Assembly: GCA_010279815.1 (NCBI GenBank)
Contig: QEOQ01000503.1
Coordinates: forward strand, 471,994 to 535,993
Direction of reading: 5' to 3'
Length of the DNA stretch: 64,000 nucleotides
Origin: Brachionus plicatilis
Lineage: Eukaryota > Rotifera > Eurotatoria > Ploima > Brachionidae
Part shown: piece after piece, positions 2,484 to 50,713 of the stretch
How the letters are laid out: every line of letters starts with the position of its first letter
Position numbering within the stretch: position 1 is the stretch's first letter
Program-made: the position numbers and the translations under genes
The notes under the pieces: model-generated
Seen by the model: only the letters and a program-made list of their open reading frames with translations
The model's database searches: none
Told to the model about the DNA's origin: nothing

Positions 2484-2832
2484 GGTTAAACTTTTTATTG
2501 TTTAATTTACATAACATAAACAATTACCCGCGGATTTTTTTATTGTTTAATAGAGTGGAAATTTTGGGTTACACACGTTCTGTGTCAGAGTAGACGTTTG
2601 AACGACGTGACTGATTAGAAAAGCCAAATTAAAGAGATTAATAAGTGATTCACCCAAGGCGATTTAGAATACTATCCACAAACTTGAGTATTATCTTGTT
2701 TTGTTATAAAAGTGTTAAGTCTTGTTACATAATCCAAAAACTTAAGTAAATAGACAAATTTTTTATTTAGAGAAGACTTGATTGAGTCAAGTTTACTTTA
2801 AAAACTTGATAAGCTCTTTAAAATATATCGAG

Positions 2833-10480: not shown

Positions 10481-10759
10481 NNNNNNNNNNNNNNNNNNNN
10501 NNNNNNNNNNNNNNNNNNNNNNNNNNNNNNNNNNNNNNNNNNNNNNNNNNNNNNNNNNNNNNNNNNNNNNNNNNNNNNNNNNNNNNNNNNNNNNNNNNNN
10601 NNNNNNNNNNNNNNNNNNNNNNNNNNNNNNNNNNNNNNNNNNNNNNNNNNNNNNNNNNNNNNNNNNNNNNNNNNNNNNNNNNNNNNNNNNNNNNNNNNNN
10701 NNNNNNNNNNNNNNNNNNNNNNNNNNNNNNNNNNNNNNNNNNNNNNNNNNNNNNNNNNN
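10481..10759. other. assembly gap (279 N)
   Basis: Run of N. The apparent ORF spanning it (10387-10788) is an artefact of translating N and is not a gene. Confidence 0.99.
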
Positions 10760-19014: not shown

Positions 19015-22000
19015 ATGAGTTTGGCTCAGAGACAAACAATTATGATTGAGTTACACAAGCTTATGTTGGTAGGCTTTTTGCTGGGTTGTACCAGCGCCCA
19101 GCAGATAAACCCGTGCTTGAATTCAGCATGTGCCAATTTGGCAAAATGTGTGCCACTCAACGAATACAATTACACGTGCGAGTGCAACTCGACTTACTGG
19201 AGCGGCCGGTTTTGCACCGAGCCGACGGTCAGCAACCCGTGTTTCTCGCGTCCGTGCCGCATGAACTCGTCTTGTCTGTTCGACGAGGCGTTCAGCGCCT
19301 TCAAGTGTGTGTGCCAGCGCGGGTACACGGGCGTTCAATGCGACCAGATAATAGACGTGTGTCAGTCGTACCCGTGCAAAAACCGCGGCCTTTGCTCCAA
19401 CATAAACAGCAAAGGTGTGGTACAGGCCGACTTCTATCAGTGCTCATGTCAGCCAGGCTACACCGGCAACAATTGTGAAATAATAATAGACCAATGTTCT
19501 TCCAATCCTTGTCTCAATTATGGCATATGCATCAATCGAGTGGACAGATACGAATGCATTTGCTTGCCGTTCTTTAATGGTACGCGGTGTGAGAACGACT
19601 TTTCGCTCAACAGCTACACATGCTCGTGTGCACTTGGATTTTTTGGAGACAAATGCGAAATAGAGTTGAATCAATGCGCCGGACCGGTAAACCCGTGTGG
19701 CGACTTTGGTGTGTGCACTCTGGTGCCTAGTAATGGTCAACAGTACACTTGTATTTGTTTGCCGGGCTTTACTGGTCTCAATTGCCAAATTAAGCTCGAT
19801 CTGTGTGCCAACAACCCGTGTAAATTTGGCGGCACATGCACTACGCCTTCTCCTTTTCAGTATCAGTGCCAATGTCCCGCCGGCACCAGAGGGGTCGACT
19901 GCGAGGAGAACATCGACGAGTGCCAGTCCCAGCCATGCATCAACAATGGAACATGCATTGAAACAGCGCTTAATTCCTACATCTGCCTATGTCCTGACAG
20001 GTTTGAAGGTGTCAATTGTGAAATAGTCAATCAGGTGTGTACACCCGAGTCTTGTCTAAACGGTGGTCTGTGCTTAAATAGCCAAAATGGTCCATTTTGT
20101 CTGTGTTTGGATGGTTTTTCGGGGGTCGATTGTGCCATAAGTTTGAGTGCATGCAATTCAGATCCGTGCTTGAACAATGGCACATGCATCAAGGGGCTAA
20201 ACAACACGTACAGATGTGCATGTCGACCTCCATTCACAGACACCAATTGTCAGAGTACGTATGACCCGTGTTTGTTGTATAACCCGTGCACAAACGGAGC
20301 TACTTGTGAGTCCGATGGTGGTTTGACAAGGTGCAGATGTTTGTCCAACTCGACAGGCACCTTTTGTGAGAACAGAGTTAGTGTGTGCGAGAGTGGACCG
20401 TGTGGAAATAATGGAAAGTGCTATGAACAAGCGGATGGATCGTACCGGTGCTTCTGCAACCGAGGCTTCACTGGACACAATTGTTCGGCTGTCATAGATG
20501 CGTGCTTGTCCAATCCGTGCAAAAATGGAGCCCCATGCCGACCATTGTTAAATGACTACGAGTGTAGCTGTCCAGTTGGATACACGTCTAAAAGATGTGA
20601 GCTCGAGATCAATTCTTGTGAGAGTGATCCGTGCCTGAATGGCGGCATTTGTTTTAATAGATTCAACTTTTATAATTGTTCGTGTCCGCCGGATTTCACG
20701 GGGCCGAACTGCGAGGTATCACTTGACCCATGCTTGTTCTTGAGCAATTGCTCGGGAAAAGGTATTTGTGAGAATCAATTTGGAATTGGAGTGTGTAGTT
20801 GTAATCAGCCCTCTTATGGCGAATTCTGTCAATTTTCTTTTGATTACTGCCTAAGCAGACCATGCCAAAATGCCGGAAATTGTCGATCGGTAAGTTCAAT
20901 TTTTTTTTTCATGTTTATTTTGGCAATTTTTATTAAGAGGAATTTAAGTAAAAAATATAAAATATCTTTAATATTTTATTATGTAATTAAAACACTAATA
21001 TTTATATTAATATTTTATTTAATTAAAACACTTTTTAATTTCACAATTTAAGAAAATCAAAAATTATATAACTTGGTCCTAAAAACAAGTTTATTATGTC
21101 ATTGATCTGCTTTGTTTATTGTTTCCAAGAAACTCATCAAGTGTATTATTTTTCAAAAACATTGACGGTATAAAGTTTTTATCAAATTTTGCTAGATCAG
21201 TTCTAAAGGAAAAGTGCAATTTATTTTAAATTATCAAGACTCAAATTATCAACTAGCTCATAAATTTGTAGAAAAAAGCAAATTCTTTAGTTATATATTT
21301 TTTGTGTTTTAGTTAAAAACTCTTTTTGTTTGTAAAAGACAAAAATTTATAAAAATTGACAGATAAGAGATTAATTGTAAACTTATCAACTGAGCAAATC
21401 AAAAATTCATTCATTTTTTTTAAATTTAAAACATCTAGCTTAAATTATGCAATAGTCATTTTATTTTGAAATTTTCAATATAATATAAGTTTAAAAAATA
21501 AAAACTTAAAAATTGCTTTTTTCTAAATTAAAATATAATTAAATAAATTTGAACAATCCTATTAACTTTATTTCTGCAGCATATTTTAATGATCTAAAAT
21601 TTGATAATTTAAATGCAATTTTAATTGATTAGCACATGTTTTAATTCAATCGATTTAAATTATAATAAATTTAAAAACAATTAATTTTTGGGTTAAATTA
21701 ATATGATAAAATTTATAAACAAATATGGTTTTTAATTAAATGATTCGTTTATGAAGAATTATTTGTCAATTTTTGAGGTAGTATTTTATTTTTTTGCGGC
21801 ATTAAATTTCCATTGGACGTAGTAGTCTCAAAAATTTTAAAATCTTAAAAGTAATCAAAACATGAATTACAAATCCAAAGTTTATTCTTAAAAATAAACA
21901 TTCTTTTTATCTTCGCTATTGATCCGAGGTTAAAAAACAGGAAAATTAATTTTATTTAATTTTGAGTACAGATATAAATTTTCATAAATGTTATAAAAAC

Positions 22001-25000
22001 TAATTTGTTTTTTAAGTTAATTTTTTGTTAGTAACTAAAATTTTATCAAAACTGGTAGAATTTATTATTCCAACATAAACAAAAAACAGACTCTTTAGTC
22101 GATTTTTGAAATAAAAAAAAAAAACCTTTTTGTTAGAAAAAAATAATACAATTAAATTCAAATATGTATAAGTTTTATGTTGAAATTAAAGTCTCTAGGA
22201 TTCCTCTAGAATGCCTAGAACAGAGTTTTATTCAAATTACTACAAATTTTCATTTTCGTATGAAAAAAATTAATCAATTAAATAAAATAAAATAAAATTT
22301 ATTTTTTGTTAATATTTTCAGGTAATGGTCTTTTTAGGGATTTTTCTCATTTACTATCTTGACCTTGATTTTTTATCTTTAGTCCGATATGTTTATTTTT
22401 GTCAGCTCATAAAGTATCAAATTCAAATTTAAGATAAATTGATTTAAAAACACCAAAAAGATTTTCAAGCAAAAGAAATAAATGAATTTAAATTACTTTT
22501 AAAAAAAAAATTTACTCAAATTTACTCCACTCTGACTTGAGTTAAGACTTGTGATAAACAACTGTGATTAGTACTCCTAAAAAGATATTTTTTCTTGATA
22601 ACATTTTAGATAAATTCAAATTAGACTTAATTATTTTTATTTTATTCATTTTAAATTTCATGTATTAATCGTTCCTGAAATTGTAATATTTTCATCAACA
22701 AATGTATAAAATTACTTTATTTTGAAATTTTAAAAAACAAAGAAATCAAGTAACAATTTAAATTTTGACATTTTACTGTGTTTATTTGAGTGCCAAAATT
22801 ATTAACATCTGCTCATAACTTTGAATAAAAATTGTTCTTTTTAAGAATTCAACATCATATTCATGTAGTTGCACAGCCGGATTCACAGGAGCAAATTGTG
22901 AAATTGTGATTGATCCGTGTGAAAGTTATTGTATGAATGGAGGCAGCTGTTTTACGGACGCAACCTTAATGATCGGATGCCAATGTCCATGTGGATATGA
23001 AGGTTTGAGATGCGAGACAAAAATAAACTTCTGTAATGCTTCGTCACTTTGTGAATTTGGACGTTGTGTCGAAAGCAGTTGTGGATACGAATGCGAGTGC
23101 GATTGCGGATATACGGGAAGATATTGCGATGTGCCAATAGACCAGTGTTTGCCTTATGCCGATGGTTCTTCAAAATGCCTCAACAACGGTCTATGCATTA
23201 ACAATGGATGCAACTTTACTTGTAATTGCACTCAAGGATTCACCGGAAGCATTTGCCAGATCAAAAGAAATTTATGTGACTTCAACACTTGCCTGAATGG
23301 GGGTTTTTGTAACGAGCTCACAAATGACTACTACTGTTCCTGTCCATGCAAATATTACACAGGAAAAAATTGTCAAGTAAAATTCAATTAAGAAATTTGT
23401 TTTTAAAAAAATTATTTAAAAAAACAAATTAAAGAATTACACTGATATTTGCTCAGAAAAACAAAATGAATGTCTAAACGGGGCCACTTGTGTGTCAAAG
23501 GGATGCGACTTTGAATGTGTTTGCTCAGCATTTTATACTGGTAGCAGATGTGAGACAAAAATTGATCCTTGCTTGAACAATCCATGCTTTAATAAGTAAC
23601 TAAAATTATTTTTTTTATTTTTTTACCAAAATAACAAACCTAATAAGAAAAAGTAGATTAATATCTTCGATTAAAAATTAGAATCATTATATTAAAAAAA
23701 AACAAAAATATAAGTTCTTTTTTAAATTATATAAATTTCATCAACCAAGAGCGATAGCATATATTTTTTTAAATTTTAAGGTTTTGTGAAGTTCAGTACA
23801 AAAGAACAGAACAAAGTGTAAAAAAATTAAACAACTTTTTTTCTAAAGGTTTAAAATAAATTCTGTGAATACAGAATAGTGCAACATTCAAAGTTGCATC
23901 AACTGTTAAAGTCTGCAAATGATGTGCAAAATCTCTGCAAAATGCACTACGCTCGATTATATTGAAATTTAATTTCTGCTAAACTCTGCAAATTTAGCAG
24001 ACCTTGATATTTGATGCAACTTTGAATGTTGCACTATGTTGCATTTACAGAGTTAAGTTAAAACCTTAAAAAAAAAAGTTATTTAATTTTTTTACATTTT
24101 TTTCTGTTCTTTTTATCATTTTGTACTGAATTTCACAAAACCAATTTTAAATAGGTATAACAAATTTCATGTCATCTTATGTAATTATCAACCATTTCGG
24201 GGGTAAAAAACATAACCCAAAATTAAATGAACAAACTTTAAGGTTTCTTTTTTGTGATCTAATCAGTCACAATTCTTATTCTACGGTTTGTAAACTATTA
24301 GTTCGTCTAATTTTTTTGTGAAAAGATGAACCAAAATAGAATTAGGTGACCAAATTTCAAATTAGGTAGACAATTTTTAGATTAAATGAACTAATAGTTT
24401 ACTAAACCCGAGAACAAGAATTTTTCCCATACTAGACCCCTTTTTTATGAAGGAAAAGTTTACCAAGTAATGCTTTTGACATGACAATAAAAAAATTTGA
24501 AAATGATTTTTAAATGATTCTAAATCGAGTAGAACTAGTTAAATTTAATAAAAATATGTTTGATTTCTGAAACTTTTTTTTACAACCCTTGAATCAATTG
24601 TGAAAACTTGCTTCTATTTAGTCGTTTGATGACAATTGATGTTCATGAATTTAATGAACAATGCCAAAGCATTTATTAGCTCAGATATCAGATGGTTTTT
24701 AAATAAAAATAAATCAATCAAACAAGAAAAAAAAGCTAAGTAAGCACATTTAATTCAGAAATTGTATAAAGATTAGGTCGTTCCAAAGGTTCAAAATTAA
24801 AAAGACAAAATCATTTAAGTAATGTGAAGTTTATTTTAAATTGACTCATTTTAATTTATATATGCTTTAATTATCTTTTAAAGAAAAATGATAAATCGAT
24901 TCTGCGAATTTTGCGAAAGCTGACTTTTGAAATTTTAATCTTTAAAGGCAAAACACAATAGAACAAGTCAAAATTATAAATAATAGGAAAAATTTTTGAA

Positions 25001-28000
25001 TAGTTATTCAAATTTATTAGATTAGATTGGAACTTAAATTTTTAATTTTTAGTATTCATCACATCAAAGCATAAATATTTTTAAGGTTTCATCAATTTTA
25101 ATGAATTGAGATTATAAATATTTTTCTTAATTTAAATTAAACGCCATAGATGTTCTGAAAAGTAAATTAAAAAAGAAGAAAAATTACAGTCACAGTTATG
25201 ACCTGTATTTGTGACATTAATACAATTATGAGGGTTGGATTTAAAATAAAATTTTATTAAAATGATGACCTTAGACTTTAAACACGGCTTGGAAGATTAA
25301 ATTAAGAATATCTAGGCATGTGTGAGAGACGAGATGGTAATTTCCTTTGTCTTAGTTGTGTTTTGGGTTAATGACCATAATCTTTTAATAAATTAAAGAA
25401 ATAAAAACCTAAATAAAATGAAACTAAATTTTTTTGTTAATGATCTATAGTCTCAATTATTTTTTTAAATTTATTAAAAATCTTCCATTTATTTAATAAA
25501 CTTTTTTTTAAAGTGGAATATGTGTATCAGACGAATCGAAAGGAAATTTTAGTTGTATTTGTTCAAATGAATACACAGGATCTGACTGCTCCACTTTAAT
25601 TGTTCAAAGTCCTTGCGTTTCATCACCGTGTGAAGGATTTAAACTATGCATCGATAGAAATTCAACTTATAGCTGTGAATGTCCACCTTTGTTCACCGGT
25701 GATAGATGTGACATAAGACTACGCCTTTGTGCTAATTCGCCATGCAATGGAGGACAATGCATTGAAAATTTGAATAGTGGAAGTTTCAAGTGTAATTGTC
25801 CAGTTGGTCTGACTGGTGACCGATGTGAAACAATGATCGATTCATGCCAGAGCTCGCCATGTTTAAACAACGCAACATGCTCGCAATCGAGACCAAATTC
25901 TTTCACTTGTGTTTGTCCACCAGGTTTTACGGGAACTCTTTGTCAACTAAAAATTAATCCTTGTCTGTCTTTTCCATGCTTAAACAATGCAATTTGCTCA
26001 ACTGATCCAATCAATCCAGACAAATGGACATGCAATTGTAACGCGACTTGTTTCAGTGGTGAGAGATGCGAAACTGAAGTAAACCCATGTATGAACAATA
26101 CATGTAATTCTAGAGGCAGTTGTATCAACTTGGGCTCATGTAATTCCAGATGTTTGTGTCAAGCAGGTTGGACTGGTGAAAAATGTGAAATCCGATTGAA
26201 CATTTGTGACAGTCAGCCCTGTATGAATGGTGCCACTTGTATTAATAATGAAAATTCGTGGAGCTGTAGATGTAGGCCGGGATTTACTGGAGCACGATGC
26301 ACAAACTATATACTTGCTTGTTCTAGTTCTCCGTGTGAAAATGGTGGATTATGTACAGAAGATCAAAATTCTTTTTCTTACTCATGTACTTGTCCTCCTG
26401 GGTGGACAGGAAGCTCGTGTGAAATAGACATTAACGAGGTAAGAATGCTTTAATTAAACATAAAGTATCCATTAGGTAAATTTTGACTAATTATTATATT
26501 AAAAAAAATTGACCGATTTTTTTAAAAATCAGTTTACTTTGGAAATTTTTCAAAAATCAAATCTTAAATTTATGCATTAATTTTTTAAGATTTGATCACA
26601 GAATTTTTCATAAAATATTGAATAATGGATTATCGAACTGATTTTTAATTTAGTTAAAATTTAATTTCCTTTTCTAAAAAAAAGATTAATTTGTTCTGAA
26701 AACAATTTGCAGAATTTGTACTTCAATTTAAAAAAAGTCGTCTTAAGAGAACATTTAGGTAAAATTTTCAACATCAGAATATAAGTTTTATTAAAATTCA
26801 CGTTTCAGTTGTCTTAAAAATCTAGCAAGTTTTTTATTGTTGTTGTTTATTTATTGGTAGAACAGTGGAATTTTTATGGTAAAGTCTGACAGAGCTTTTA
26901 AAAAAAAATTTATTTTTTCTTTTAATTAAATTTTTGACAAAAAAAATTTTCAATATTATAGTTTTTTTGTTTTTCAATTTCAAGATTAATCAACAGGCTA
27001 GTGCCCATATCTCTTTCGAGACTGATTAAAATTAAAAATTGAAAAATCAAACATATTAAAACGTAGAAAGGTAAAAAACGAAGATTACAGATAAAAAAGT
27101 AGAAAGTGCTAATTGATAGAATTTTTTAATGTAGAAAAATATTTTTAGAAAAACAAAAAGGTAGAAAAACCAAAAAAATGAAGAACTAAAAAATACTAAA
27201 TAATTTTTTAAGATAATAATGTCACTTTTAAAGAATAATGCAAGACTTTATTTTACATACTTTAATATATTAAAACTTAAATAAAATAATAAAACTAAAA
27301 TTTTTAAAAATGAGTCAAAATTCTCCGTTAATTTTGAAATTGAGATCGAAGATAAATAATTTAATAAATGTGTATAATAGTGAAATGCTTGAATTTTTTT
27401 TAGATGGATTCGCTTCGATTTTAGATGAGCACTAATTAATTAATTATTTAAAATAAAAAATTTTATTTAAATAAATAGTTTTCGAAAAGTTAAGAATTGA
27501 TTCTCACTTTTTTATACCAATTATGAATTCTACTTTTTCTTATTCTACGTTTTTAGTTTCTACGTTATCAATTATCCACATTTTTTTTCTGCATTGTTTT
27601 CTTCAGCCATTTATCGCTTCTCTTTTTGTTTATACGTTTTGAGTGTCCCCCTAAAAATTGTCATCTTTCTCTATGATTATTAGGTTAAAAATTAATGAAT
27701 TATATTTTTTTGAGAGGTTAAATTTTAAATAATCAAAATTAAATGAAATCATAATTTAAGTAGCTAATTTATGAAACGATAATATTCCTATTTGAAAAAA
27801 AAATTTTTTTAAATAATACCTTTTTTGGGGATCAAATCATTTAAAAAGTGTCATGTGGATAAATGAAAGAATAAAAAAATTATATATAAAATTAAATTAA
27901 AACTAAAAATAATTGTAAGCTTGAAAATTGGATTTGCATAAAATGGTTTATTTTCATTTGCATCCAGTTTGCTAAAAATTGAAACAGACTTCTACTATAT

Positions 28001-31000
28001 TTCTATCTATTGCATTTTAGTGTCTCCGATGAACTCATATCTTTTATTATTACTTTCTTTAGATCTGTCAAACTAAGTCTTCTAGTGTTAATGGTTTGGA
28101 CAAATTATTGTAATTTATTTTTCTTGCCAATATGTGCAACGTTGTATATGGAAACATTTAGTTCATTCAGTGCATCCTATCTTTTAGACGGATTAACACT
28201 TCATTTATTTAAATCCTTCATTAATAGAGGAATTCATTTAAAATTTTATAAAACGAATGCAAAATAATTTGAAAAAATTTAACAAGAAGATATTCGTTCT
28301 AGTAAAACAATTCGATTAAATGTTGAAAACTTCAACATTGATCTTTTAATCATAAAGATTGAAGTAAATTAATGCTGACATCTACCTAGTTTGATCTTAT
28401 GATGAAAATTAAGTCATTTTTTTTCAGCGAAATCATGGAATTTAAAATCTATTATTTTATTTAATTAATTAAAATCAAAAATAATTTAAACATTTTTTAC
28501 TCGATATCATTTTTCTTAAAAAATGTTTTTTGTTTTCAGTGTGAATCAAGCCCATGCATGAATAGTGGTACTTGTGTAGAGGACAAAATCGGCTCATTTA
28601 GATGCATCTGCTCGAAAAATTTTTCGGGCAAATTGTGTGAAACATTGGTAGAAATATGTTTGAGTCAGCCTTGTCTAAACTCAGCTGTTTGCACATCAAA
28701 TTTGAACGGAACTTATACTTGCACATGTCCGAGTGGTTTTTACGGACCCCGTTGTGAATTCGAATCAAATGAATGCTCCTCAAATCCGTGCCTTAACCAA
28801 GGTATATGCACAGACAAAGTCGATTCATATGAAGTAATTTAAATTTTTTCATTTGAAATAAACAAATCTCATAAAAACTATCTTAATTTAATAAAATAAA
28901 TTTTTTTCAAAAATTTTTTTCAGTGTCGATGCCCGCCGGAATTTACAGGCACCAACTGCAACATATCATCTTGCACTCATTATTGTCTTAATGGTGGAGT
29001 TTGTATTTCAGACCAAAATGGTTCAAACTTATGCAACTGTCAGTCTGGATTCACTGGCTTACGGTGCGAGCTAATTGCCAATCCATGTAGTTCTAACCCA
29101 TGTCGATCTGCCAACAGCCAATGTGTTAGCCGATTCTTCGGCCACTTTGAATGTCTATGCAACTACGGATACACTGGGCGCTTCTGCGAATTCAAAATAG
29201 ACTCTTGTGCCAACAATCCATGTGTAAGAGGAAATTGTTACACCACTAATTTTGGTATAGTTAAATGTCTGTGCCCATCTGGCTACACAGGCCGGTATTG
29301 TGAAATCAACTTATCCATTTGTGAACCGTCCAACCCGTGTCTTAATGGTGGCACATGTCAATTTTCCACTTCATACAACTCATCTGTGTGTCCCCAAGGT
29401 GTAACTGGAACTGATTGTGACATGCCCATAGACGTGTGTGCTTCGAATCCTTGCCGTTCAAACAATGCTATTTGCATCAAAAACAACCTTTTTTCATTCC
29501 AATGTATTTGTCCGCCCTATGAGACAGGCCGATTTTGTGAAACTACCATTAATCTGTGCGTGCCAAATCCATGTCCGTCTAACATAAGATGCAATCAAAT
29601 TTCCTTTACAGAAACTAAGTGTGTTTGTCCGCCTGGCTTCTCTGGTCCAAAGTGCACTGAAAGATACGATGTGTGTCAAAGTAATCCGTGCATAAATGGA
29701 AATTGTGTGTCGCCTCTGCCAGGTGTTTTCAGGTGTAATTGTCAACCAGGATACAAAGGAATGTATTGTCAAGAGTCAATAGTTTTGTGCGATCTAGTCA
29801 CTTGTCTCAACGGAGGCTATTGTGTCGGCAATTCTTCTTTGTCGACCGGCTTTCATTGTTTGTGTCCGCGCAGCTTTACCGGAGTGTATTGTGAAACTCC
29901 GGTGAATCCGTGCCAATCAGGAGTTGACTTGTGCGGCAACAATGGCATGTGTATGTACGTTGCTCCTGGTGACTTTGTTTGTAAGTGCAGAAGTAGTTGT
30001 TTTTATGGAAAATTTTGCGAGTTGACTTACAACCCATGTACTGAAGGCTTTTGCAAAAATGCCGGTCTTTGCACTTTCAACGAGTCTCAATGTTCATTCA
30101 GATGTCAATGTCCGCCTGGTTTTAGTGGAACTAATTGTGAACATACCATAAACCCATGTCTGGCAAAAACAACTCCTTGCTTTAATGGAGCTACGTGTGT
30201 TGCAAACTCAACTGATGAGTAAGTTTATAAAAAATTAACCAAAAATAAACCAAGTCCCATTTATTGCCAATCAAGTCATAAAAATCCAGCATCTAACTTT
30301 ATTTAATAATAAGGTTGCTTTATGTTTTCTTTGTGGTCATCAAAATTACCGTAAATTTCATGTACTTTATGTAGTTTTCTGATTGAAAAAACTTTAAAAT
30401 TAAGGACTTTATGTATCCTTAAAGGACAGTTTGAGAAAATAAATAAATTAAAATTATTAAAGAAAAATTGCCATAAAATAAACTATAGTTCGTCAAGTAA
30501 GGATTTATTTTAGGCTATGCTTTGTTTGGACAAAATGGAGAAAAAACGGGGTACGGGGCGCAGTTACGGCAAGAAGTATAGATTAATTATGAATGAAGAG
30601 ATGTCTTGATAATTTTAATTAAAATTGTACAAAAGATTACATACTCGGAATAGAGATACATGGTTTTATATGGCATAAAGTGCATTAAGTACATAAAAGT
30701 CAGTATGAAGGGGATAATTTAAAAAATTAAGGCACACATAAATTATATACTTTAATTCGGAGCCAATTTTTTTTTTTTTTTATTTAAAAAAAGTTATTCA
30801 AATTTAGCTGAACTGGAAAGACCAGATTGAAAAAACCATTCTTTGCGTTTTTTTGTCGGAAAAATTAGATATTATGTGCAAAAAAACACATTGATAGAGT
30901 TTTGAAATTTCATAATTATAAATTCAAGACATCATCTTGTATCAATTTTTCAAATTCAAGAAAAATTGAGACAAGATGTCTCAATTTTTCTATACCTTAG

Positions 31001-37000: not shown

Positions 37001-40000
37001 ACAAAATTCTTCCTTTAAATATGGTGTTTTAATTTGATTTTACTCATGTAATTTCTTAAGTAAAATTGTAAATTTAGCGAAAAATATTTTTAATGTACAT
37101 TTCATTTATTTTATAGTAATTTCATCCTAAATGGCAATAACATGAAGAATAAAAAATTTATTTTAAATGGAAAAATTTAAGTTTAATGACCGTTATTTTT
37201 ATATGATATTTCAGAGTAATTTTTAAGTCCAAAATACTTGAAAATATGAAAATGAATTGCTTTATTTCAGCTCTGAATTTTTTATTAAAATATTCATTCT
37301 TTGTAAAAAAGTAAATATTTAAGAATTAACTATATTTATTAGATTAAGTATTGGAAATATGATGATGGAAATTTTTCTTCCTTCAAAAAAACTATTCTTA
37401 TTTAAAATTTTATTTTCATAAAGGATCAATATTATTAGAATATTATTTAGTTTCTAATTAGAAAAAAAAATTATGATATAATGTAGTGTTTGTAATTAAG
37501 ATTTTTTCAATGATAATTTAAATTTTTTGAATACTTATAAAAATACAGGTTGTATATCTTTTTAAAAAGATGTAACTTGTACCGGTTCTAGCGAAGTGAG
37601 ACAGAGGCCCTCTGTGGTCTCTTTATTAAAGTACCGGTACTTCGAGTTTCGATATAACATATATTTTTTGTGTAAAAGATTATTGTTCTGATAATTTTTT
37701 GATTCTTTTAAAGACAACAAATTAGTGTTGGTAAACGGGAATAAATGACTCCGGCAATGCCACTGTCACTCCTTTTCCCAACACTTCATGTAATCAGAAA
37801 GTTTCATGACAAATCTACATTTCAAGCTTTTTCTTGCATCTAATTTGTATTATTTTTAAGAAAAAATTTGTGTTGACACTTTTGATTATTGTTCCAGTTT
37901 ACCTTGCTTAAATGGTGGAACATGCATTCCCAAGGCCAATTGTACATTTGCATGTAATTGTAGTTCAGATTTTTACGGTGATTTTTGCCAATTTTCGCGT
38001 CAAGAAAGCGTTTTTTCCACTCGTGATTCAATAAATCTACTCCTTCCATGTGAAACCCAGCTTGATTTTAAAATGGAACTTCAGCCATGTCTGGTTGAAG
38101 CGTGGAAACAAGCCAATCCTCAATTTTCATGTCCAGTAGGATACGAAAACATTCCTGGCATAAGTGACAGATGCTTTTTGGCTAAAGGGGTACCAACAGG
38201 AGTCGACAAACTAACTGCAGATTACGAGTGTCAAATAAATGGAGCTTCTTTGATTATTTTTGAGAATGAACAGAAATTAAATGCTGTCGTTGAATGGTTA
38301 GATGCCAAACAACTTGGTCAAAATAAATACTGGACATCGTCAGCCGTGTTCAGAAATGGAACTCAAAATGAAAGCAATTGGTCTTGGGTATGGGCCTCGA
38401 AGCTCTCAAACACAATTCACCCAATTGAGTATGACAATTGGGGCGCGTTCCAAGAAAAAAATTTCAATGGTGATTCACTCTATTTAGATAAACAAGATAA
38501 CAGATTTTATGTGATGTTAAGTCGCAATAATTTGACTGGATTTATATGTGAATCAAAAATAAATGGCCTCACAGACCTGAACATAAATATCAATGAGCTT
38601 GGTCAACAGCAATCATTTACAAATATTGGAGGGACAGCACTTACAATTCAATACTCGGTTGATATAACTACTAATGAGACTAGTAGTGTTAAAAATGAAG
38701 TTCGCAGTCCAAACTCAAGTTTAATAAAAGATATAGTCAGAGATACATGTTTCAAACAAGTTTTTATTGATAGTATAGATGGCAGGATATATTCATTTGA
38801 CAATGCATTTTCAATAGATATTTGTGGAGATATAAATCCGACTCATACGGATTTTATAAAAAAAGCTATATTCGATTCGTGGCTAACAGCTAGACCAGGT
38901 ATTAAAATTTAATTTTTAAAAAATATTGAAATTTGAGAATTTTCATTTTTAAGAATTTTCATGGTGTAGTGTCCAACGAAATTGTCTAAAAATTGAAATC
39001 TTAAATACTAAACAAGTGTTTTTCAATAATTGGTAAGAAATATTTTAAAATTGATTTTTTTTAATGTGGATACTAATTTATTAAAATTATTGTTATATTT
39101 AAAAAAAATTAAAAAATTCTTTAACTCGAAAATCTTCTTTTTGATCATCTTTGTTGCTGACATGATTTCACGCATTTACATGGATTGTAAATCGCTCAAT
39201 AATGCATTTGATTTAGATGGGTGTTTGTCTAAAATCTTAGATTTTTATTAAGCCCACGAAAGAAATATTAAGAAGTCGAGTATTCGATTTTTTAAATCTA
39301 AAAATTAATTAAATTAATTTAAATAATAAAATTATTTTAGCAAAATTAAATTGTTAAAATTTTAAAATTTCTCGAAATGTTTATTTTTATAAATTAATTA
39401 ATTTTTCTCTTAAAGGAACAGATTTACTCGTTTGGATTATTCTGTTTTTGTAAATGATGTTTTAATCAGTCCAAATGATGCGAGTGCAACTCCAACTAGT
39501 GAAATAATGCGTCAAAATATTGAAAAAGTTAGAAAAAATTTCTACTCAAGTTATTTATTGTGTGGAATATTGGAAAGATCAGGAGTAAACCAATCTTTTA
39601 TTGACACGCCAGGTATTAAATCTCAATATTTTCCGATTGTTCTCAAAAATTTTGCTTTATCAACTTCAATATTCACTCGATCACAAATTGAGACTGGAAT
39701 TAGAAATGCCTTCTATTTGACATCTGGCATTGATCCGTCACTATTCCCAATCCAAAGTGAACTTCTTGACAATTATCGTGATGTCTTAGTTTTGTCTCAG
39801 TTTTACTCTAACATCCCCATTAACAGGTTTAACATAAATCCATCTCAAGTTGTTTTTCCAACCAGTCTTCTCATGTTCAAGTTAACCATAAATGGAACAA
39901 ATTTGTCGCCAGCTGTACAAGCACTCTTGGATGAGAATCAATTTTATTTCGCTATTCAGCAGCAAATATACGCCAATAGTCAATTGAGTTCTCTGTCGTT

Positions 40001-43000
40001 GACTTCATTTTTGTTGAATGAAAATCAGCGATACTTAATTCCAGGCGATAACTTTTGGCGCGTTACTTTTTCAACCCAAGTTATTGAAGAAGATATTAGA
40101 TCGATTGAAAATGTTCTTAAAAATTTCATTACAACTTTTAAAATTGAGTTCAAACACTGCACCAACTGTTGGAACGACAGTATCTCTTCCTTTACTGTAC
40201 GATACATCTACACTAACCATTTAATTGACAATAGAGCGTAAGTTAAAAAATTATTTATACTAATTTCAGGACCATAATATTTTAAGAATTTTTTAATCAG
40301 AAAAATTTGTACGTGCTTTTAATTTAATTTCAAAGTTAATCAACGGAATAATGCCCTTACCATAAAAGACCTATTAACACTTCTTATATTTGATTTTTAA
40401 AATCTTTTACAAATTAAAAAAATGTTGTTTATAAAATCATTTAAAATTTTTCACCATTTGCTGTTTTTGATGCTAGTTCAATCAGATTCTCACTATTCCT
40501 TAAATTATATTTCAAATTTCATGAGTCATTTTCTTTAATTTCTATCTTAAACTATCAGGTGAATTATTTAAAAAAAAAAAGAATTTTAGAAGCAAAAGAC
40601 AACATTCTTTCCATTAATCTATGCTGAAATGCATATAAACCACAATTTTCTAGAAAATTGTTAATTTCATTAAAGTTATTAACTTTGAATTTAAACTTAA
40701 ATAATTTAAATATCGAAAAATAATAACTTTTAGCTAGTTTAATAATTGTCTCTTTTGGAAAATAGCACAAGAGATTAATTAAAATAAGGCAAAGTACACG
40801 TCTTAAAAAAATTATTATCCTAGAAGAATATAGTCTCTTAATACAATTAATCAATTATTTTTTTAAGAGATAATTCAAATTAATTTGCCTAAATAAAAAA
40901 TCATTTAATTAAAATGAGAAAATTGTTTTTAAATCAACCTTTAATCAAGTTTTATTTAATTGTTTAGAATTTAAGGCTTGATTTTAATTGTATCTAAATC
41001 AAATAATTCTTTTTATCGGTGAGAAATACATTTCTGTCATTTTTTTCCTAAACAATATACCTAAAATAAGGTAAATTGACCTTACTTTACGTATATTTAC
41101 GAATTCATAAAAGCAGAAACTCGACAAAAATTAAATAAAATTAGATATTTCAAGTTTAAATATAGCAGTATTTCAATTAAATTTAAATTTCATCTTGCCC
41201 TAATTTTACTCTTTTCTCCGTTTTCAAATAAAAACGCCATTTTTTATAAATAAAAATAAATGTTTTTTAGCAAACATTTTCTTCTATCTACGTAAAATTA
41301 GGAAAATTTATATTTTTTATATTGGTTAATTTAGGTGATTGTCTAAGCTTTGGTTTATTGAATAGAGTTTTTTTATTACAACATAGAATTTTCAAAAATG
41401 ATCTCTCGACTTAAAGATAAATTGGTCCTTAAAAAAACATGAAATGTCACTTGCATAGAATAGTTATTTTCTTGATTTCAATAAAATGAGAATATTATTT
41501 TAACTCATTTTTGAAAATCTAGTATTAGCACTTTAGAAGTACTTAATAATTCTATTTCACTGTAAATTACTTGAAAAAACTTTTTTTAATTAATAATCGC
41601 TTTTCAAAATGTGCCACTAGAAAGTTTGTTTAATATTCATGAGAAAAATTTGAGCCAGACGTAGGCTCTGCATAAAACTCTGCTATTTAATTTAAAAAAT
41701 ACATAAAGTACATAGCATACTTGCAGAGATTTTTGCAGAAATTAAATTTGAATGATACCAACTTTCTATCAACTGGATTATGTAGAACGATTTTTAAATC
41801 TTAAAAAAAGGCATTAAAATAGGTAATCTAAATTTTATTTGTTTCAAACTCACTATTATGATTCTGTTTATGGCGTGTTAATTTTTATTAACTCTAATTT
41901 CTGATTTTATAAATAATTTTATTAAATGATTTTATTTTTACAAATAACATGTAAAAAATTCTTATTTTATTTAATAATATTGATTGACACTATAATTTAA
42001 GATTTAACTCAATTCTATTTAAAAAAATTAAAAAAGAATTAAATTGTATTGCATCCCAAGTGATGGTCTTTTTTCCTATTTAGTTTCGGCTTTTGACAAA
42101 TAATCTTATTTACCGAAATTAGTAAACAGGGAAATTTTTGTTTGATTTTATAAATTATTAAAAAAAGTTAAATGTTTTGCAAAAATAAATTTATTTTAGC
42201 AAAACATGATTTCTCAGCTTTTGTTGAGCTTCTTCATCATCATTGCATAGTTTACTGCGATATATTATTATATACCATCGCCAAAAGCTGCTTAGCCATT
42301 TTTGGCTTTTGCAGTCCTTATTTTATCATTTAGATTTCATGAACAATTCGAATTTTGAAACGATTGATTGTTTTGGCTGATATTGTTTCCCTGTAAAATT
42401 AAACACAAACAAAATTTGTTAAGAAAATTACAAAAAATATTTTTTTGGCTCTGTGCTTTTAGTGATTTTATTTATTTTATTTAATTAAATAGTTTGAGGG
42501 TAACCCTCAGGCTGTGTAGAATGGGTATTATCCTTCTTTTCAGCCTAACGAATAAAAAAAAAAAAATTAAAATTAAATTATTATGAGTTAAGTATTAAAA
42601 ATGTAAATGTAGGAATTAAAGTTTAAAATAAATAAAAAAGTAAAGATTACAAAAATTTAAGTCTGTTTAAGTTTTAGAGAGGAAAAAATTTCAAGGTTAA
42701 AAACTAATAAATTTCCAATAACATGACCGAATTCCGCTTTAGTCGCGGACTTCCTCTAATGACCCATTCCGAACTTGGCTGAAGTTGTAGTATAACGATT
42801 TAAACTTTGTTTCTATTTGGGAATTTGATTCAAATTCATTCAATTCTTCGATTAGCTGATTGTGGTGTAGCCTGCTTTTTAAATAGTTTCTTAGTAATTT
42901 TTCGGTTCGTGTTGAGATCATGTTTAACTCGAACTTTTTATGAATCTCTGATACTCTTGTTATTAAGGGGAAAAAATGTATGTGTCTGAGAATATTGTTC

Positions 43001-46000
43001 TGGGTTATTTGTAGGTCCGACATAAATCTTTGTGTAGCTTTTAGTGATGCAGTCAAAAATTAAGATAAAAAAAAATAATCGCCATTGTTCATTAAAATAA
43101 GTTAAATAGGGATATTTTTTTCTGAAAATATTTTGGTTTTATTGAAAACATTTTAAATTAAAATAAAAAATAAATTTGAATACAATTTTTAAGAAATATG
43201 TATTATGAATTATGGTTTGTAGTGGTGGTTAGGAACCAAATGGAGAACAATCGACTAAAAATGGTTGAGTTGGGTGAAGAAAGCGATTTCTTGAGCAAAA
43301 CCCAAATGAATAGACAAGCTTTATACAATAGCTTGAATTCTGTGCCAATTTCTTATAATAATGGAAATAAATTCTACACTTTGTCCCAAACTAGCGCAAA
43401 AACAAGACAAAAAATTAAAGCTTTGACAATTAATTTGAATCAATCAATACTTCACGAAGACATAGACCCGATTATAACCACACTTAAATCCTCCATTGGT
43501 CTAGTTTCGAACAGTAAAGTGAAAAATGACGACAAGTTCGAAGTTGATTACTGGGGACAGAGAGAATTTATAAGACAAAATTCAGATCACAGTTTTGACA
43601 CCTATTGGCAAGCTTTTTTCTTCATTCGACCAGAGAACAATTCCCACGAAATTTTCGATCCTACATACGACTATTTAATCAACACCATTAATATAGACAA
43701 CTTTTTTAAAGTCTACATATCAGCCAGATCTAACTATTTCATAAACACAATCGAGACTAGTCCAGGCTCGGACTATTCGACTTCAAGTGACCTGTTCTAC
43801 TTGCCCTGCTTTGGCTCCATAAGTCTACAAAATCAAATACTAATTTCATTTTTGCTCAGAAATGTTTGGCTAAATGTTTATTCAAATGATGAAATTGTTA
43901 AAAATACCTTACAAATAGAGTCGCTGAGCTCATTGATAATTCCGTATGTGAATGAGAAAGGCTCATTTTCAGTAATTCCGTACGCTGTGCGGGCATTTGA
44001 TCAGCAAGCGTTGTTGAAGCGAGGCTTGTACAAAGAGCCTTCGCTTAACGAGCTAAAGGCAGCGCTGAGTGGAGTATGTGATGTCCAAGATGGTATAGAC
44101 AACTTGTTTAGAGAGGACAGTCTGAATTACATAGAAGTAGTGGGCACCATAAATATAGACCAGGCTAAACAGTACTTGCCAACAATTACATTTGCGTACA
44201 TTTCCTATTTTGCATCCATGAACCAAAAGTATGAGCCCAGCGTCATAATTACTAAGCCAAGCGAGATAATTGTTATTGAGAACTATTTGGTTAATATGAT
44301 TATTGTGACCAAGATATACTACAGGGTGTTTGCGAATACAACATTTGAAATGAATTCCTTCAATTATGATATCAAGAAAACACAATTTAAAATTTCGTCA
44401 CCGGACTTGAGTGCTTTGACTACGATTTTATCGCGAAAAATGAGCAAAAGTTTTGCTCGAATCGATTTGTTTAGAGCCAGTGCTAGAGTGGAAAATATTA
44501 ATTTGATTCTGGCATGGTTGCCTCAGATTACAATTGAAATGGAATTTGGAAAAGAATTGTCTCTTGATGAGAAAAGAAGCATCGAAACGGTGCTTGTCAA
44601 TTTTTGGACTGAATGTAAGATATTTATTTTTAGTTTGAAAATTGGATTAAATAATTTATGAAAAAAAGTTAGATTTTAGAGCGGAATTTTTGAGTCAATA
44701 TTTTTATTTAGCCAAGAGGCTGGCTTTAATTATTTATTTCTTACCTCGGTCTACAAAAAATTAATTCGAAAAAAAGTTTTTTATTTCTTGGTCAAAATTT
44801 TAAATTATTTTTTTATGGGTCATGTCGACTATGTGATCAAGTGTTCTTGAAGTTTAATTTGATAACTAATTTATAACTATAGAAACTTGCTAAGACTAAA
44901 ATTGAAAATTAATTTTCTTATTATTTTACTCTTGGTTAAGAACAACAAAATTATTTTTTTAAAAAAAAAAATAAATATTTTTTGGTTTTGTGAAGTTTAG
45001 TACAAAAGAACAGAACAAAGTTTAAAAAAATTGAATAACTTTTTTTCTAAAAGTTTAAAACTAAATCTTTAAATGCAGAATGGTGCAATATTCAAAGTTG
45101 TATCAACTGTAAAAGTCTGCTAGTGATGTGCAAAATGCACCACGCTCGATTATATTGATATTTAATTTCTGCTAAACTCTGCAAATTTAGCAGACCTTGA
45201 TATTTGATGCAACTTTGAATGTTGCACTAAGTTGCATTTACAGAATTAAGTTTGAACATTTAAAAAAATATTTATTCAATTTTTTTACATTTTTTTCTGT
45301 TCTTTTTATCATTTTGTACTGGATTTCACAAAACCATATTTTTCCGATTCTTTTTCATTTAATTTACTCAACAAGTTTTAAAAAAATGTGATCACGGATA
45401 TCATGTCTAGAATGTGATCATTTTGATCAAAATAGAATTAAAGAACTTTATGTGATCATATAAATCATTGACTTTTTTTTCAAAATAGATTGATGCCGAT
45501 TTAGATGCATTAAATTCGATTTTTCAATCCTTTTGCATATTCTTGGCAAGTTCTAAGCAACATTTTAAGGTGATAATAAGACTATATCGTCACAGTAGGC
45601 AAGAATGGATAAATTAAACTCACCAATCTTTGCATCAACTTTCAAATCATTACATAGATATAATATTTGATCGATGAAAAAATTTAATAAGTATTGAGAC
45701 AATATCCTCCTTGTTTGATCCCTTCAGTTATTGGAAATGGAGTACTTTTTTCTTCACCAAATTTGACGATCCCTTTAGAAATTTCATAATATCTGTATAA
45801 TATTCTCCACAGATAATTATTCATTTTACCATTTAGTTCGTAGTAAAGCCCAGAACGCCATATATTATAAATACAACTAAAATATTTTGCAATTAAAAAA
45901 TTTTCGATCACCAAAAAAATTTTCAAATTTTAGTACCTATGATCGCATTTTTTGTAAATGCTTGATCACATCATGCATGACTCTTTTTATGTTATTGTCA

Positions 46001-48253
46001 AAATGATTGATTCGAGCTTTTTTTTGATTGAATTTAAAATAAAAAATTGTAAGGAATGCAAGGATTTATCTTTTTAAAATCTAATTTTAAATATTTTGGA
46101 TTAAATTTTTTATTTAAAATTTTTTTAACGATCTTTTTAAATATTTTCTGTTTAAAAAATCAAAAGTCTTTAAAGAGTTTCCAAAATTAAGATTTTTATT
46201 TTAAAATTTTTGAATTCCTTAAATACTTAATTATACTGAACAAATTTTATTTTTCAAACCATTTATCAATCTTTTTAAATTTTAGCATTGAAAAAATCGA
46301 ATAATTCATTCAAAACAATCGAAGTTGAGCTAGCATACTCGAGAGGCCTCTACAATCTCAATACAGAGATTAATTCAGCTCTTATTCATTACATAATAGC
46401 AATAGATGGTCTGGTAAAATATGAATCGGAGCTTTCCGGTTCTTTGACCAAGTCCACTTTGAGTCAAGAACTTGCTAAAATAGGCTTTAAAACAGTAGAT
46501 AAAGACGCTTATTACCGCTTGCGTTCAATATATATAGACACTAATGACCGACCAGCTGAATTCAATCATGAGCTATTAAGTTCAATCTTAAAGCAAAGCT
46601 GGACTGACCACATAAAAACCAGTGGAATTATTCTCTTCCAGTCAAAGCCTTTGCAAATAATTGTCAAAGTGATCAGACAAAGCCTCTATTACTCCGATGA
46701 GTAAATTTTTAAAAAATTTAAATTCTCTAATTTTATAATTAATTTATTTAGAAAACAAGTTGTTGGCATAAGTTACGCAGTTAGCGTTGATGGACGAGAT
46801 CCATTCGACTTTTTGATTTCAGACTTGCCTTCTGCCATTCTTCAACCCAAAATAAGCCCATTCACTATTGTTTCAAATAGCTCTCTTTTGGCAAGACGAA
46901 TGTATGTATACAGCGCTAGGCTTACAGACGAAATGCAACTCATTAATTCAGCACTCATGAAAGAGAAGATATCCAATTTATGGCAGGATAAAAACATCCA
47001 TCCAAACAATTTACAATCAATTAATGGTAAAAATCATTTTTTTAAAATTAAATTGAAATTTTTTTTTAATTTAACTAAAAAAATTTTTTCCTAAAGTGGT
47101 TTACAAAACGGGCTATTACAAAGCCGAAAGTAGAAATTTTTACAGCAATTTTTTGGATGTGTCATTTTACCGAATAACTTATACCCAGTCAATAAACGGA
47201 ATAGAGCCATCTCACTTGTTCTACCAGTCTCCTAATGAGGCTGACTTTGATAAGCAATTTTTGAAAAGTCTAGACCAAAATCTAATGGGTTTTTGCTTCA
47301 AAGACTGCTTCAATTACAAACAAAGCGGAATTTTGATTAAGCCAACTTATGCCACTAGTCCTGATCTATTAAATTTAATAAAAAATACTTGGATGAATGC
47401 TAATCAAATTGGATCAAATTTATTAAATTCAAACAACATTGAATTGTCTTATATTACAAATAAAAGATCTTTCAAGTCAATGGACACCCAGACTGGTCTA
47501 TCTATTGTGCTTTTCAATGTCAAATTGAACTCAAAATTCAACCAAATCGATTCACTTGATTTGATAGAACCAAGCAAAGAAGATTACTTGAAAGAATTAG
47601 CCTCGGTCTATCAAAACATTACTCCCAAAGACTTTTACCCTATTCTAGATTTGTCTGTCATCAAAGAAAAATTGGTGTCTACAACTCAGCAACCAGAGCC
47701 TACAACTGAGCAATCAAAGCCTACAAATGCTCAAATTAAAACTACATCCGCATCCAAAAATGATGAACAAGATTTGCCTAAAGAACAAAGTGCCAATACA
47801 GAGTGGTGGGTGATTTTTTTGATAGTTCTAAGTGTTTTGATAATTTTGATGCTGATTGCTGTGGTTACAATTGTTTGTATTGTATTCAGAAATAAGAATT
47901 CTAAATTTTCTTCCAAAAAACACCTGTTGAGGAGCGATAACGACTCGGAGTATTCGTCTAGAGGCATTGAGAACCCGTTTCCGAGAGATTTCGATGAAAA
48001 TGAAGATCTTGATTACACCAGGTCGGTTATTAATCCGAATATAAGTATTCAAGAGCCTAATTTCAATCAAACGATCTCAAAAGGCGTAATTAGCCGACAA
48101 AGTGATAGAATTGTGTATCCCGGGTTAACTATTGAAGAATTAGTGCCCAATCCGATTTATACTAAGGTAAAAACTGATGAAAATCTAGTTTCGAATGTTT
48201 ATGTTACAGGAAATATGAAAGAGATGACAGCCAGCCCAAGCTCACAGGACTAA
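19015..48253 (+). CDS. giant EGF-repeat / C-type-lectin-like single-pass membrane protein (17 coding exons, about 4,261 aa)
   Basis: Likely a cell-surface receptor or adhesion protein. Exons, all joining in phase: 19015-20889, 22846-23376, 23435-23595, 25514-26438, 28540-28833, 28924-30218, 32192-33353, 33422-33782, 35422-35590, 35644-36449, 37861-38898, 38954-39032, 39416-40237, 43194-44614, 46286-46700, 46752-47026, 47097-48253. Signal peptide (ATG at 19015, or M10 at 19042 before a Leu-rich core and SAQQ); about 64 EGF-like modules to about residue 2562; C-type lectin-like domain 2617-2757; about 1,300 residues of unrecognised repeated modules; Thr/Pro/Gln stalk; TM 4113-4140; cytoplasmic tail of about 121 residues with NPIY at 4228. 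Many EGF modules carry C-x-S-x-P-C and C-x4-T-C, the O-glucose and O-fucose consensus sites known from Notch. No LNR, ankyrin, DSL or laminin-G domain, so it is not Notch, Delta or Crumbs. Exon 12 (79 bases) is inferred from phase and a GTAAGA donor. Confidence 0.85.
20890..22845 (+). other. EGF gene intron 1
   Basis: GTAAGT donor, TTCTTTTTAAG acceptor. About 1.96 kb of AT-rich sequence with no recognisable element; the ORF running into it from exon 1 (to 21051) is read-through past the donor. Confidence 0.6.
23780..24142. mobile_element. MITE family B, copy 2, with 8-bp target duplication
   Basis: GGTTTTGTGAAGTTCAGTAC at the left, GTACTGAATTTCACAAAACC at the right. Perfect AATTTTAA repeats flank it (23772-23779, 24143-24150). 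Body nearly identical to 11584-11944. The 8-bp duplication suggests hAT mobilisation, though in AT-rich DNA an 8-bp AT word is weaker support. Confidence 0.8.
24205..24455 (-). repeat. dispersed repeat, family C copy 2
   Basis: Carries GAACTAATAGTTTACTAAAC, CGAGAACAAG and ACTAGACCCC, the inverted form of the motif order at 15682-15800, plus an internal inverted pair around AACTATTAGTTCGTCTAAT. Ends not fixed. Confidence 0.45.
26439..28539 (+). other. EGF gene intron 4
   Basis: About 2.1 kb. From 27060 to 27190 many GTAGAAA words occur, and from 27530 to 27600 their complement (TTCTACGTTTTTAGTTTCTAC), suggesting a degenerate foldback. A coding-like 85-codon ORF at 28010-28267 (hydrophobic, two Cys) resembles nothing I know and lacks splice context; I do not call it a gene. 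Confidence 0.4.
30219..32191 (+). other. EGF gene intron 6
   Basis: About 2 kb. Contains a foldback at 31085-31352 (separate entry), a smaller inverted pair around AATTGAGACAAGATGTCTCAATTTTTC (30960-30990), and a locally GC-richer island at 30530-30600 that reads [20 protein letters not shown] but has no context. No gene called. Confidence 0.5.
31085..31352. repeat. foldback with about 90-bp arms
   Basis: Arm 31085-31175 (TTTATCTTTAAATATTAAAA...ATGTTATGTAGATT) is the inverted copy of 31265-31352 (AATCTACATAACATGT...TTAAAGATAAACT). Probably a MITE; no target duplication identified. Confidence 0.65.
33783..35421 (+). other. EGF gene intron 8
   Basis: About 1.6 kb. Starts with a poly-T run (33841-33862). 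Holds a large foldback (34506-34858) and, at 34130-34275, a related smaller unit with CTGCAAAAACTCTGCAAA facing ATTGCAGAGTATTTTG. No coding exon found. Confidence 0.5.
34506..34858. repeat. foldback with about 155-bp arms
   Basis: Left arm from GCATCTTGAAGTATAAGATC through CTCTGCAGAATGCTAAATAA and CTTCTGCAAAAACTCTGCAA to about 34665; right arm from about 34700 (TTGCAGAATTTTTGCAGAGG) to the complement GATCCTAAACTTTAAGATG at 34858. Only about 35 bp lie between the arms. Confidence 0.7.
36855..36970 (+). other. coding-like island of unknown origin
   Basis: GC content jumps and one frame reads [19 protein letters not shown] then a hydrophilic run to a TAA. No splice signals match the EGF frame, so it is probably a captured retroelement or gene fragment. 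Unrecognised. Confidence 0.25.
37724..37785. mobile_element. 62-bp hAT-like solo unit
   Basis: Begins AGTGTTGGTAAACGGGA and ends TTTTCCCAACACT, short inverted termini of the AGTGTTGG type also seen at the start of the window. GC-richer than its intron. Target duplication not seen. Confidence 0.35.
40238..43193 (+). other. EGF gene intron 13
   Basis: Nearly 3 kb, the longest intron. It contains a LINE fragment (42470-43056, minus), a small CTCTGCATAAAACTCTGC / GCAGAGATTTTTGCAG inverted unit at 41655-41745 related to those in intron 8, and otherwise AT-rich sequence without features. Confidence 0.5.
42470..43056 (-). mobile_element. non-LTR retrotransposon 3' fragment
   Basis: The minus ORF 43056-42739 reads [26 protein letters not shown], then [19 protein letters not shown]: the pattern at the C terminus of Jockey-type ORF2 proteins (Q-N-LR-I...P...R...IH--L-I...L--Y--R...H-N-LI--L). 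About 250 bases of 3' UTR lead to an AAATAAAATAAATAAAAT-type tail (42470-42490 read on minus). 5'-truncated. Confidence 0.55.
44984..45335. mobile_element. MITE family B, copy 3
   Basis: GGTTTTGTGAAGTTTAGTAC to GTACTGGATTTCACAAAACC. Same body as copies 1 and 2, with a deletion of about 12 bases (one CTGCAAAAT unit). Flanks ATATTTTTT (left) and ATATTTTTC (right) agree with an 8-9 bp duplication. Confidence 0.8.
45490..45926 (-). pseudogene. non-LTR reverse transcriptase fragment
   Basis: The minus strand reads [19 protein letters not shown], then in another frame [20 protein letters not shown] and, at 45598-45587, YCDD followed by IVLLSP. These are RT motifs: GV-QGG-LSP-LFN and the catalytic Y-x-DD. 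A frameshift near 45695 and stops after the YCDD block show decay. Confidence 0.65.
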
Positions 48254-49924: not shown

Positions 49925-50710
49925 CTTGTTAAATAAACACTATTTTAGAATCTAAAACGATTTTAAAAATCTCGGCGGTGAAGCTCGGAGCAAAACCTAC
50001 TGCAAAATATGTTTAATTAAATTGATCGCCAGTTTTTATTCAATTATTAGTAATTTTTTTAAAAATAAATCTTCAGAATTTTAAAACATAATTTGTTCTA
50101 TGTCAACAAAATTCGAAGAATAAAAAATCGAAGAATTAGAATTAAATTTTAAAAAATGTTATTCAAAATCTTTAATAAGGCTTCGGTAAAGAAATGTCGG
50201 TTTGTATAATTGAAAAAATTAGTTCTTTTAGAAAAAAATTCACCAAAGATTTTAATTTTTTGTAAAAATTATTTGAAAATTGTTCTTTTAACATTGAGTA
50301 AAAGATGTTTTGATGCACAGTTCCAGTTTTGCCTTAATTATCTATTCTGATCCTATTTTTCTAAGGTGTTTTTTCTTTAAATAGCTCTTTTAGATCAAGT
50401 GACATCAATCTTAGGAAAAATTATGAAAAAATAAAACGACAGAAAACTATTGCAAAATAGCTTTATTTGTATATTAAAATTAAAAAAAAAAGTAAATTTT
50501 TTACCTTTTCTAAATTACTTCAATAAAATCGTATTTGATTAAAGGCAAATTTATTATTTTTAAAATTTAATAGACTTTTTTCGATTACTTAAATGAAGCT
50601 CAAGATTTTCAACAACGTTTAATTATCGATAAATAAACAAAATTTAATTTTAATGTCTAAATTTATTTTATTTCATCTACTTGAATCCAATTTTTCTTAA
50701 TTTCAAGCAT
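49925..50710. other. upstream region of the CAP gene
   Basis: AT-rich; no promoter element, ORF or repeat that I can support. Confidence 0.35.
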
Positions 50711-50713
50711 AAA

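Follow-up and report, generated by a model that had tools for sequence, protein, structure and literature searches.

A predicted giant EGF-rich surface protein of the rotifer Brachionus plicatilis, with a lectin-like domain and an array of candidate new modules

The stretch of DNA analysed here (the window, 64,000 nucleotides of Brachionus plicatilis, located at G000:C52:471994-535993 in the 102.9 Mb covered by our genome searches) displays a long succession of EGF-coding exons followed by a lectin-like domain and by coding sequence of unfamiliar type. The locus raises the question whether all these exons belong to one gene and, if so, what kind of protein would be encoded and to which known families it could be related.

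Gene model and the single-gene question

The coding sequence was assembled using a dynamic programme that scores codons and GT-AG splice sites. Under its strict setting, 17 in-frame exons were obtained on the + strand (19015..48253). Two looser settings of the intron penalty produced 19 and 28 exons, the extra ones being short, and the strict model was adopted. In the first run, an additional intron in exon 17 removed the transmembrane (TM) segment; introns were then barred at 47200-48253. The start of exon 13 at 39416 was chosen by eye from the frame, the programme having picked 39470 in the same frame, and it agrees with the B. calyciflorus protein described below. The start of exon 14 was shifted to 43194 by orthologue comparison. 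The resulting window gene model comprises 4,259 aa with one terminal stop. The preliminary description had proposed 17 exons joined in phase and a protein of 4,261 residues; the joining was re-derived by the programme and by the end-to-end orthologue, and the giant size stands, with a length two residues shorter in our own model.

Exon 1 (19015..20889) carries the start, a putative signal peptide and EGF modules, the latter matched by the Pfam EGF profile in 13 stretches. The signal peptide was recognised by eye and was not flagged at a hydropathy cut-off of 1.6. Exon 2 (22846..23376) encodes EGF modules of which several display extra cysteines, according to the model and the cysteine patterns, and those of exon 3 (23435..23595) align with the orthologue without gaps. 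Further EGF modules are placed by model and orthologue in exons 4 (25514..26438), 5 (28540..28833), 6 (28924..30218), 7 (32192..33353), 8 (33422..33782), 9 (35428..35590) and 10 (35644..36449). Exon 11 (37861..38898; model and Pfam) is a single open frame containing the last EGF module, a split module designated module 0, the lectin-like domain and the beginning of the module array. This array continues with module sequence in exons 12 (38954..39032), 13 (39416..40237), 14 (43194..44614), 15 (46286..46700) and 16 (46752..47026), again by model and orthologue. Exon 17 (47097..48253) encodes the last modules, a stalk, the TM segment, the cytoplasmic tail and the stop, as indicated by the model, the Pfam scan and the orthologue.

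The orthologue is a predicted 4,265-aa protein of Brachionus calyciflorus (P0001) that matches the window protein end to end. Identity extends to 2679/4229 aligned residues (63%), and 414 of the 417 window cysteines align to cysteines. By region, the EGF array (68%) and the lectin-like domain (66%) are the most alike, followed by the modules (58%); the tail reaches 44% and the TM segment 32%. When the C-terminal region of the window protein was used, P0001 was retrieved with E=0, 56% identity and 99% coverage among 1708 scored candidates. It was the sole relative found in a set of 5.8 billion proteins, by a search that reaches only relatives sharing short exact words, within length limits, and whose hits did not include the window's own protein. 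The protein is probably lineage-restricted, its only relative found there belonging to one other Brachionus species, in keeping with the earlier suggestion of a lineage-specific molecule. A strict six-cysteine pattern detected 58 EGF modules in each of the two species and about 6-7 atypical ones per species were counted besides, one being a half module and several bearing extra cysteines; the initial estimate of about 64 is thereby reproduced. Among the 58 strict modules of the window, 25 contain an O-glucose motif and 17 an O-fucose motif, and 2 match a strict calcium-binding pattern.

Because P0001 matches end to end, a chance joining of separate genes is very unlikely, and the locus is very probably a single gene, as first described. 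That two or three neighbouring genes, namely an EGF gene and a lectin-module-TM gene, were wrongly joined could be argued from eight introns of 1.4-3.0 kb and from a joining that is wholly computational, but this reading was rejected as having hardly any probability left, since exon 11 holds EGF, lectin-like domain and first modules in one open frame, EGF modules cross splice sites in frame and one B. calyciflorus protein covers the whole length.

Several other elements were recorded in and around the gene. Part of the exon 11-13 region, introns included, recurs over 4.3 kb at G000:C59:32728-36985, matching window positions 36468-40811 in blocks 88-96% identical; this copy contains frame-breaking indels and one stop and is either a degenerate duplicate of part of the region or a stray fragment of a haplotype. 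An intronic element whose inverted-repeat arms measure about 120 nt occurs twice (23773-24148 and 44977-45341, 88-93% identical) and is probably a short transposon. Downstream of the gene, a CAP-domain open frame with a hydrophobic, apparently transmembrane, N-terminal segment occupies 50654-51301 (+). The neighbouring genes recognised in the window through Pfam are a formin FH2 fragment at 2782-3246 (+), a LepA/GUF1-type translation GTPase at 56468-59306 (-) and CYFIP (FragX_IP) at 60731-61495 (-). An open frame at 14753-15235 (+), with a weak Ulp1-type protease match below the cut-off, is perhaps transposon-derived, and an assembly gap of 279 N is present at 10481-10759.

The lectin-like domain and the repeated module

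The C-type-lectin-like domain spans 38127..38549 (+). Its assignment, already made in the preliminary description, was secured by Pfam Lectin_C, which matched the isolated domain with E=6.7e-6 and 27.2 bits for a cut-off of 22.6, and exon 11 with 25 bits. The isolated lectin-like domain of the C24 gene, a paralog presented in the next section, reached 34.5 bits. Pfam scans of P0001 as a whole and of the long C24 piece nevertheless omit Lectin_C and, given the score of the C24 domain alone, such scans of long EGF proteins must be regarded as missing weak domains. The window and C24 domains possess four cysteines each, which we interpret as the N-terminal pair together with C1 and C4, the C2-C3 pair being lost. 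C-type lectins that bind sugars in a Ca2+-dependent manner are characterised by EPN/QPD and WND motifs and by the C2-C3 disulphide. No EPN/QPD or WND motif could be read by eye in the window domain. A calcium-dependent sugar site is therefore unlikely, the second disulphide and both motifs being missing. A PDB sequence search with the domain retrieved no relative.

According to module scoring, the domain apparently interrupts module 0, whose first half occupies 37995..38126 and second half 38550..38684 (+). Scored separately, the window segments before and after the domain obtained 3.2 and 6.1 bits, respectively. Joined after removal of the domain, they obtained 14.8 bits (1/400 shuffles), compared with 1.6 when it was left in. 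The same operation on P0001 gave 15.8 bits joined (3/400 shuffles) and 2.4 with the domain left in. The corresponding position is uninterrupted in the C47 gene, a second paralog, and scored 12.3-15.0 bits depending on the third strand (15.0 with the strand of its own gene model, 12.3 with that of a skipped frame), most of the signal being due to the helix part, which alone gave 11.1 bits. In C24 the joined segment scored 1.1 bits and was equalled in 157/400 shuffles. Nesting is thus supported by the scores of the two orthologues, and the C24 score gave it no support. The order initially proposed, a lectin domain followed by uncharacterised modules, is retained, with the amendment that the domain seems to sit within the first of them.

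The C-terminal region of about 1,300 residues consists of about ten tandem copies of one module of ~110-135 aa (38805..47668 when spliced, + strand; borders set by eye), whose units display a beta-alpha-beta-beta-alpha pattern when aligned by eye. Pfam scans of the modules as exons, as the joined C-terminal part and as 15 units gave no family above noise, and a PDB sequence search gave noise only. The region had been described as about 1,300 residues of unknown modules; no known family was indeed found, but the modules are copies of one repeated unit. For two candidate identities no match was obtained: the SEA profile matched 0/15 scanned units (a genome search with PF01390 gave no match either, its control also matching nowhere), and a KIAA1549-like module gave no match in the general Pfam scans. 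As regards a SEA-type fold, AF2 structure prediction of one module reached a pLDDT of 39, with weak alpha-beta-beta-alpha order only, and prediction of exon 14 a pLDDT of 38.

BLASTP comparison of the module region with itself returned no match, and self-comparison of a window-P0001 profile gave at best E 0.06 with a probability under 1%. A test in which unit ends overlapped was leaky and inflated. With non-overlapping units, trained on the window and P0001 only, 19 or fewer of 400 shuffles matched three of ten units, namely e (0), c (8) and i (19); five more ranged from 25/400 to 83/400, and units d and f were unremarkable. Before the paralog was brought in, results were thus weak or negative. 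Training on either C24 or the window and scoring the other placed 6/10 window units at 20/400 or below (a and i at 0) and 7/10 C24 units at 17/400 or below (C1, C6, C8 and C9 at 0). In a strict test, the same position was left out in window, P0001 and C24 and the shuffles preserved hydrophobicity. The threshold of p<=0.05 was passed by 8/10 window, 9/10 P0001 and 8/9 C24 units, with a Fisher value of about 5e-10 for the window and likewise for C24. Window units 2 and 4 and unit 4 of both P0001 and C24 failed; unit 10 was only 56 residues long, its end having been placed too early, and the tenth unit of C24 was left out. C47, which was outside the training, was examined through eight open frames lying beyond its EGF array or at the end of it: 6/8 of them were at 19/400 shuffles or below and 2/8 were not, for 0/3 controls. 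We conclude from these scores that the repeated module is real, the main caveat being that its borders were drawn by eye from the very data that were scored.

Paralogs and the heads of Notch ligands

By its sequence, the window gene is a member of a family of at least three genes in this genome; a tandem module array before the TM segment is common to the window, C24 and C47 genes. Protein searches of the genome using the window or C24 query returned only these sequences themselves, the C59 fragment and weak CTLD matches. Distant paralogs were not recovered in this way, and family counts are consequently lower bounds.

The C24 gene runs from EGF modules through a lectin-like domain and modules to a TM segment. 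Its alignment to the window-P0001 profile is colinear along 1271 columns that take in the lectin-like domain, at 23% identity and E=3.1e-6, against E=0.17 for the reversed control; alignment of window and C24 in global mode yielded nothing sensible. Its head contains an MNNL domain (E=7.8e-14) and two DSL stretches. The ab initio model has 38 exons and about 6,481 aa, remains in frame from MNNL/DSL to the TM segment and displays 115 EGF pattern matches with no internal TM. The predicted tail has only ~24 residues, without NPxY. A minisatellite-like tandem array with three open frames on the other strand is found in an intron of this paralog (G000:C24:357173-358572).

The C47 gene likewise contains MNNL (24.8 bits), two DSL stretches, EGF, modules and a TM segment, with 38 EGF matches in a partial gene model. 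This model skips several module frames and the TM, for which open frames were used instead. The C47 TM begins EWWMILIII, much like that of the window gene (EWWVIFLIV). No Lectin_C match was listed on C47 in the genome-wide search. Among the 24 matches listed for the genome, 10 form a C-type lectin domain cluster at G000:C22:657667-677211; on C57, an open frame of 4,758 aa that contains a CTLD was discarded as mostly N run.

Over the whole genome, MNNL (PF07657) gave three matches, at C24, C68 and C47, and DSL (PF01414) four, at C24 (two), C68 and C47. Neither was found at C52 by this profile search, nor in the Pfam scan of P0001. The C68 locus (G000:C68:11585-12213) is a separate MNNL-DSL gene resembling an ordinary Delta. 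Delta had been set aside at the outset. No such head was indeed found in the window gene, but Delta becomes relevant to it because two of its paralogs carry MNNL and DSL.

Proposed function and comparison with known systems

A single strong TM segment was located by hydropathy (on a 4,246-aa model) at 47798..47866 (+). It is followed by a tail of about 125 residues in which YPG-T-VPNPIYT and VYVTGN are kept in both species. The NPIY motif (48149..48160, + strand; residues 4226-4229) is part of a conserved stretch and is kept although tail identity is only 44%, and the TM segment and NPxY tail of the preliminary description are thereby upheld. NPxY motifs are short and common, and recruit PTB-domain adaptors. 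As both stretches are kept in the two species, such recruitment is the most likely cytoplasmic function.

The reading that we favour, with moderate confidence, is that of a single gene encoding a giant type I single-pass surface protein with about 65 Notch-like EGF modules and a degenerate lectin-like domain. In these rotifers it would serve as a receptor of long reach, for adhesion or for endocytosis. The EGF array would act as an O-glycosylated spacer or contact surface and the module array as a membrane-proximal rod displaying the lectin-like domain. The latter would bind protein rather than calcium-bound sugar, and the NPIY tail would engage PTB-domain adaptors, either for endocytosis or to anchor the protein to the cytoskeleton.

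EGF-rich single-pass receptors are a known type, and it is the module that is a candidate novelty. The gene corresponds in full to none of the family definitions tested, in agreement with the earlier statement that its architecture differs from the classic long EGF proteins. EGF adjoining a C-type-lectin-like domain is a feature of lecticans and selectins, and several CTLDs in a row that of the mannose receptor. Unlike in lecticans and selectins, the lectin-like domain of the window protein is apparently embedded in a new module, and no CCP was found in exons 11 and 13-17 or in the joined C-terminal part. Like the Notch ligands Delta, Serrate and Jagged, the window protein is of TM type I and carries Notch-like EGFs in an array; no MNNL or DSL was found in it, its EGFs are far more numerous, and a lectin-like domain and module array precede the TM segment. 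LNR and ankyrin repeats of the Notch receptor were not found in Pfam scans of P0001 or of the window C-terminal part.

The nearest counterpart is Uninflatable (Uif) of Drosophila, described in the available text of PMC3340373 as a large single-pass TM protein with 18 EGF-like repeats, a C-type-lectin-like domain, CUB, CCP, FA58C and HYR; EGF array, lectin-like domain and single TM are shared with the window protein, and that text mentions no module array for Uif. CUB, CCP, FA58C and HYR are absent from the scanned window exons, the window C-terminal part and P0001, in scans where exons 2-10 were not taken singly and where P0001 failed to show Lectin_C, so that weak domains could escape. In the literature retrieved, as far as its text was available, no description of the window protein or of any DSL-EGF-CTLD protein was found.

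These comparisons bring up a second reading, possible yet doubtful, in which the window protein is a headless relative of Notch ligands that modulates Notch, for instance by cis-inhibition or competition. Two module-array paralogs bear MNNL and two DSL, the window EGFs carry Notch-like O-glycan motifs, and overexpressed Uif antagonises Notch in Drosophila according to the text available (PMC3340373). Against it, C52 and P0001 gave no MNNL/DSL match, EGF arrays and O-glycan motifs are widespread, and what ties the three genes together is their modules and EGFs rather than the head. We infer a possible Notch involvement from the paralog heads and the EGF glycan motifs only. A more ambitious version, which we consider unlikely, would assume that Brachionus rotifers evolved a family of giant proteins derived from Notch ligands, with two DSL, >100 EGFs and up to about 6,500 residues, mounted on a rod of new modules with a nested lectin-like domain; the window member would have lost its head and gained an NPIY endocytic tail, and would influence Notch-type contact signalling as a decoy or as a regulator at long range.

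An improbable view is that the protein is mainly a structural part of the apical or integument extracellular matrix, TM and tail being an anchor only. Its length, cysteine-rich array and repeated modules would suit such a part, as would the short tail of the C24 relative, but the window protein has a long tail in which the NPIY and VYVTGN stretches are conserved. In secreted Brachionus lectins, a single EGF-like domain directly precedes the C-type lectin domain, and the available part of PMC8878817 describes neither a giant array nor modules or a TM for them. The same source refers to a thesis of 2010 whose subject is a mannose receptor-like molecule bearing a transmembrane domain, a membrane-bound C-type lectin regarded as mate-recognition receptor; that the window protein is a receptor of this kind is, judged by description, very improbable, the mannose receptor being built differently.

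The adhesion or endocytic receptor proposed here would give an under-studied phylum a candidate new protein module together with a candidate new family of giant surface proteins. Should the C24 model hold, its product combines a Notch-ligand head with >100 EGFs and a lectin-like domain. Setting the window gene beside C47, in which no lectin-like domain was found, suggests a way for one domain to become inserted inside another repeat unit.
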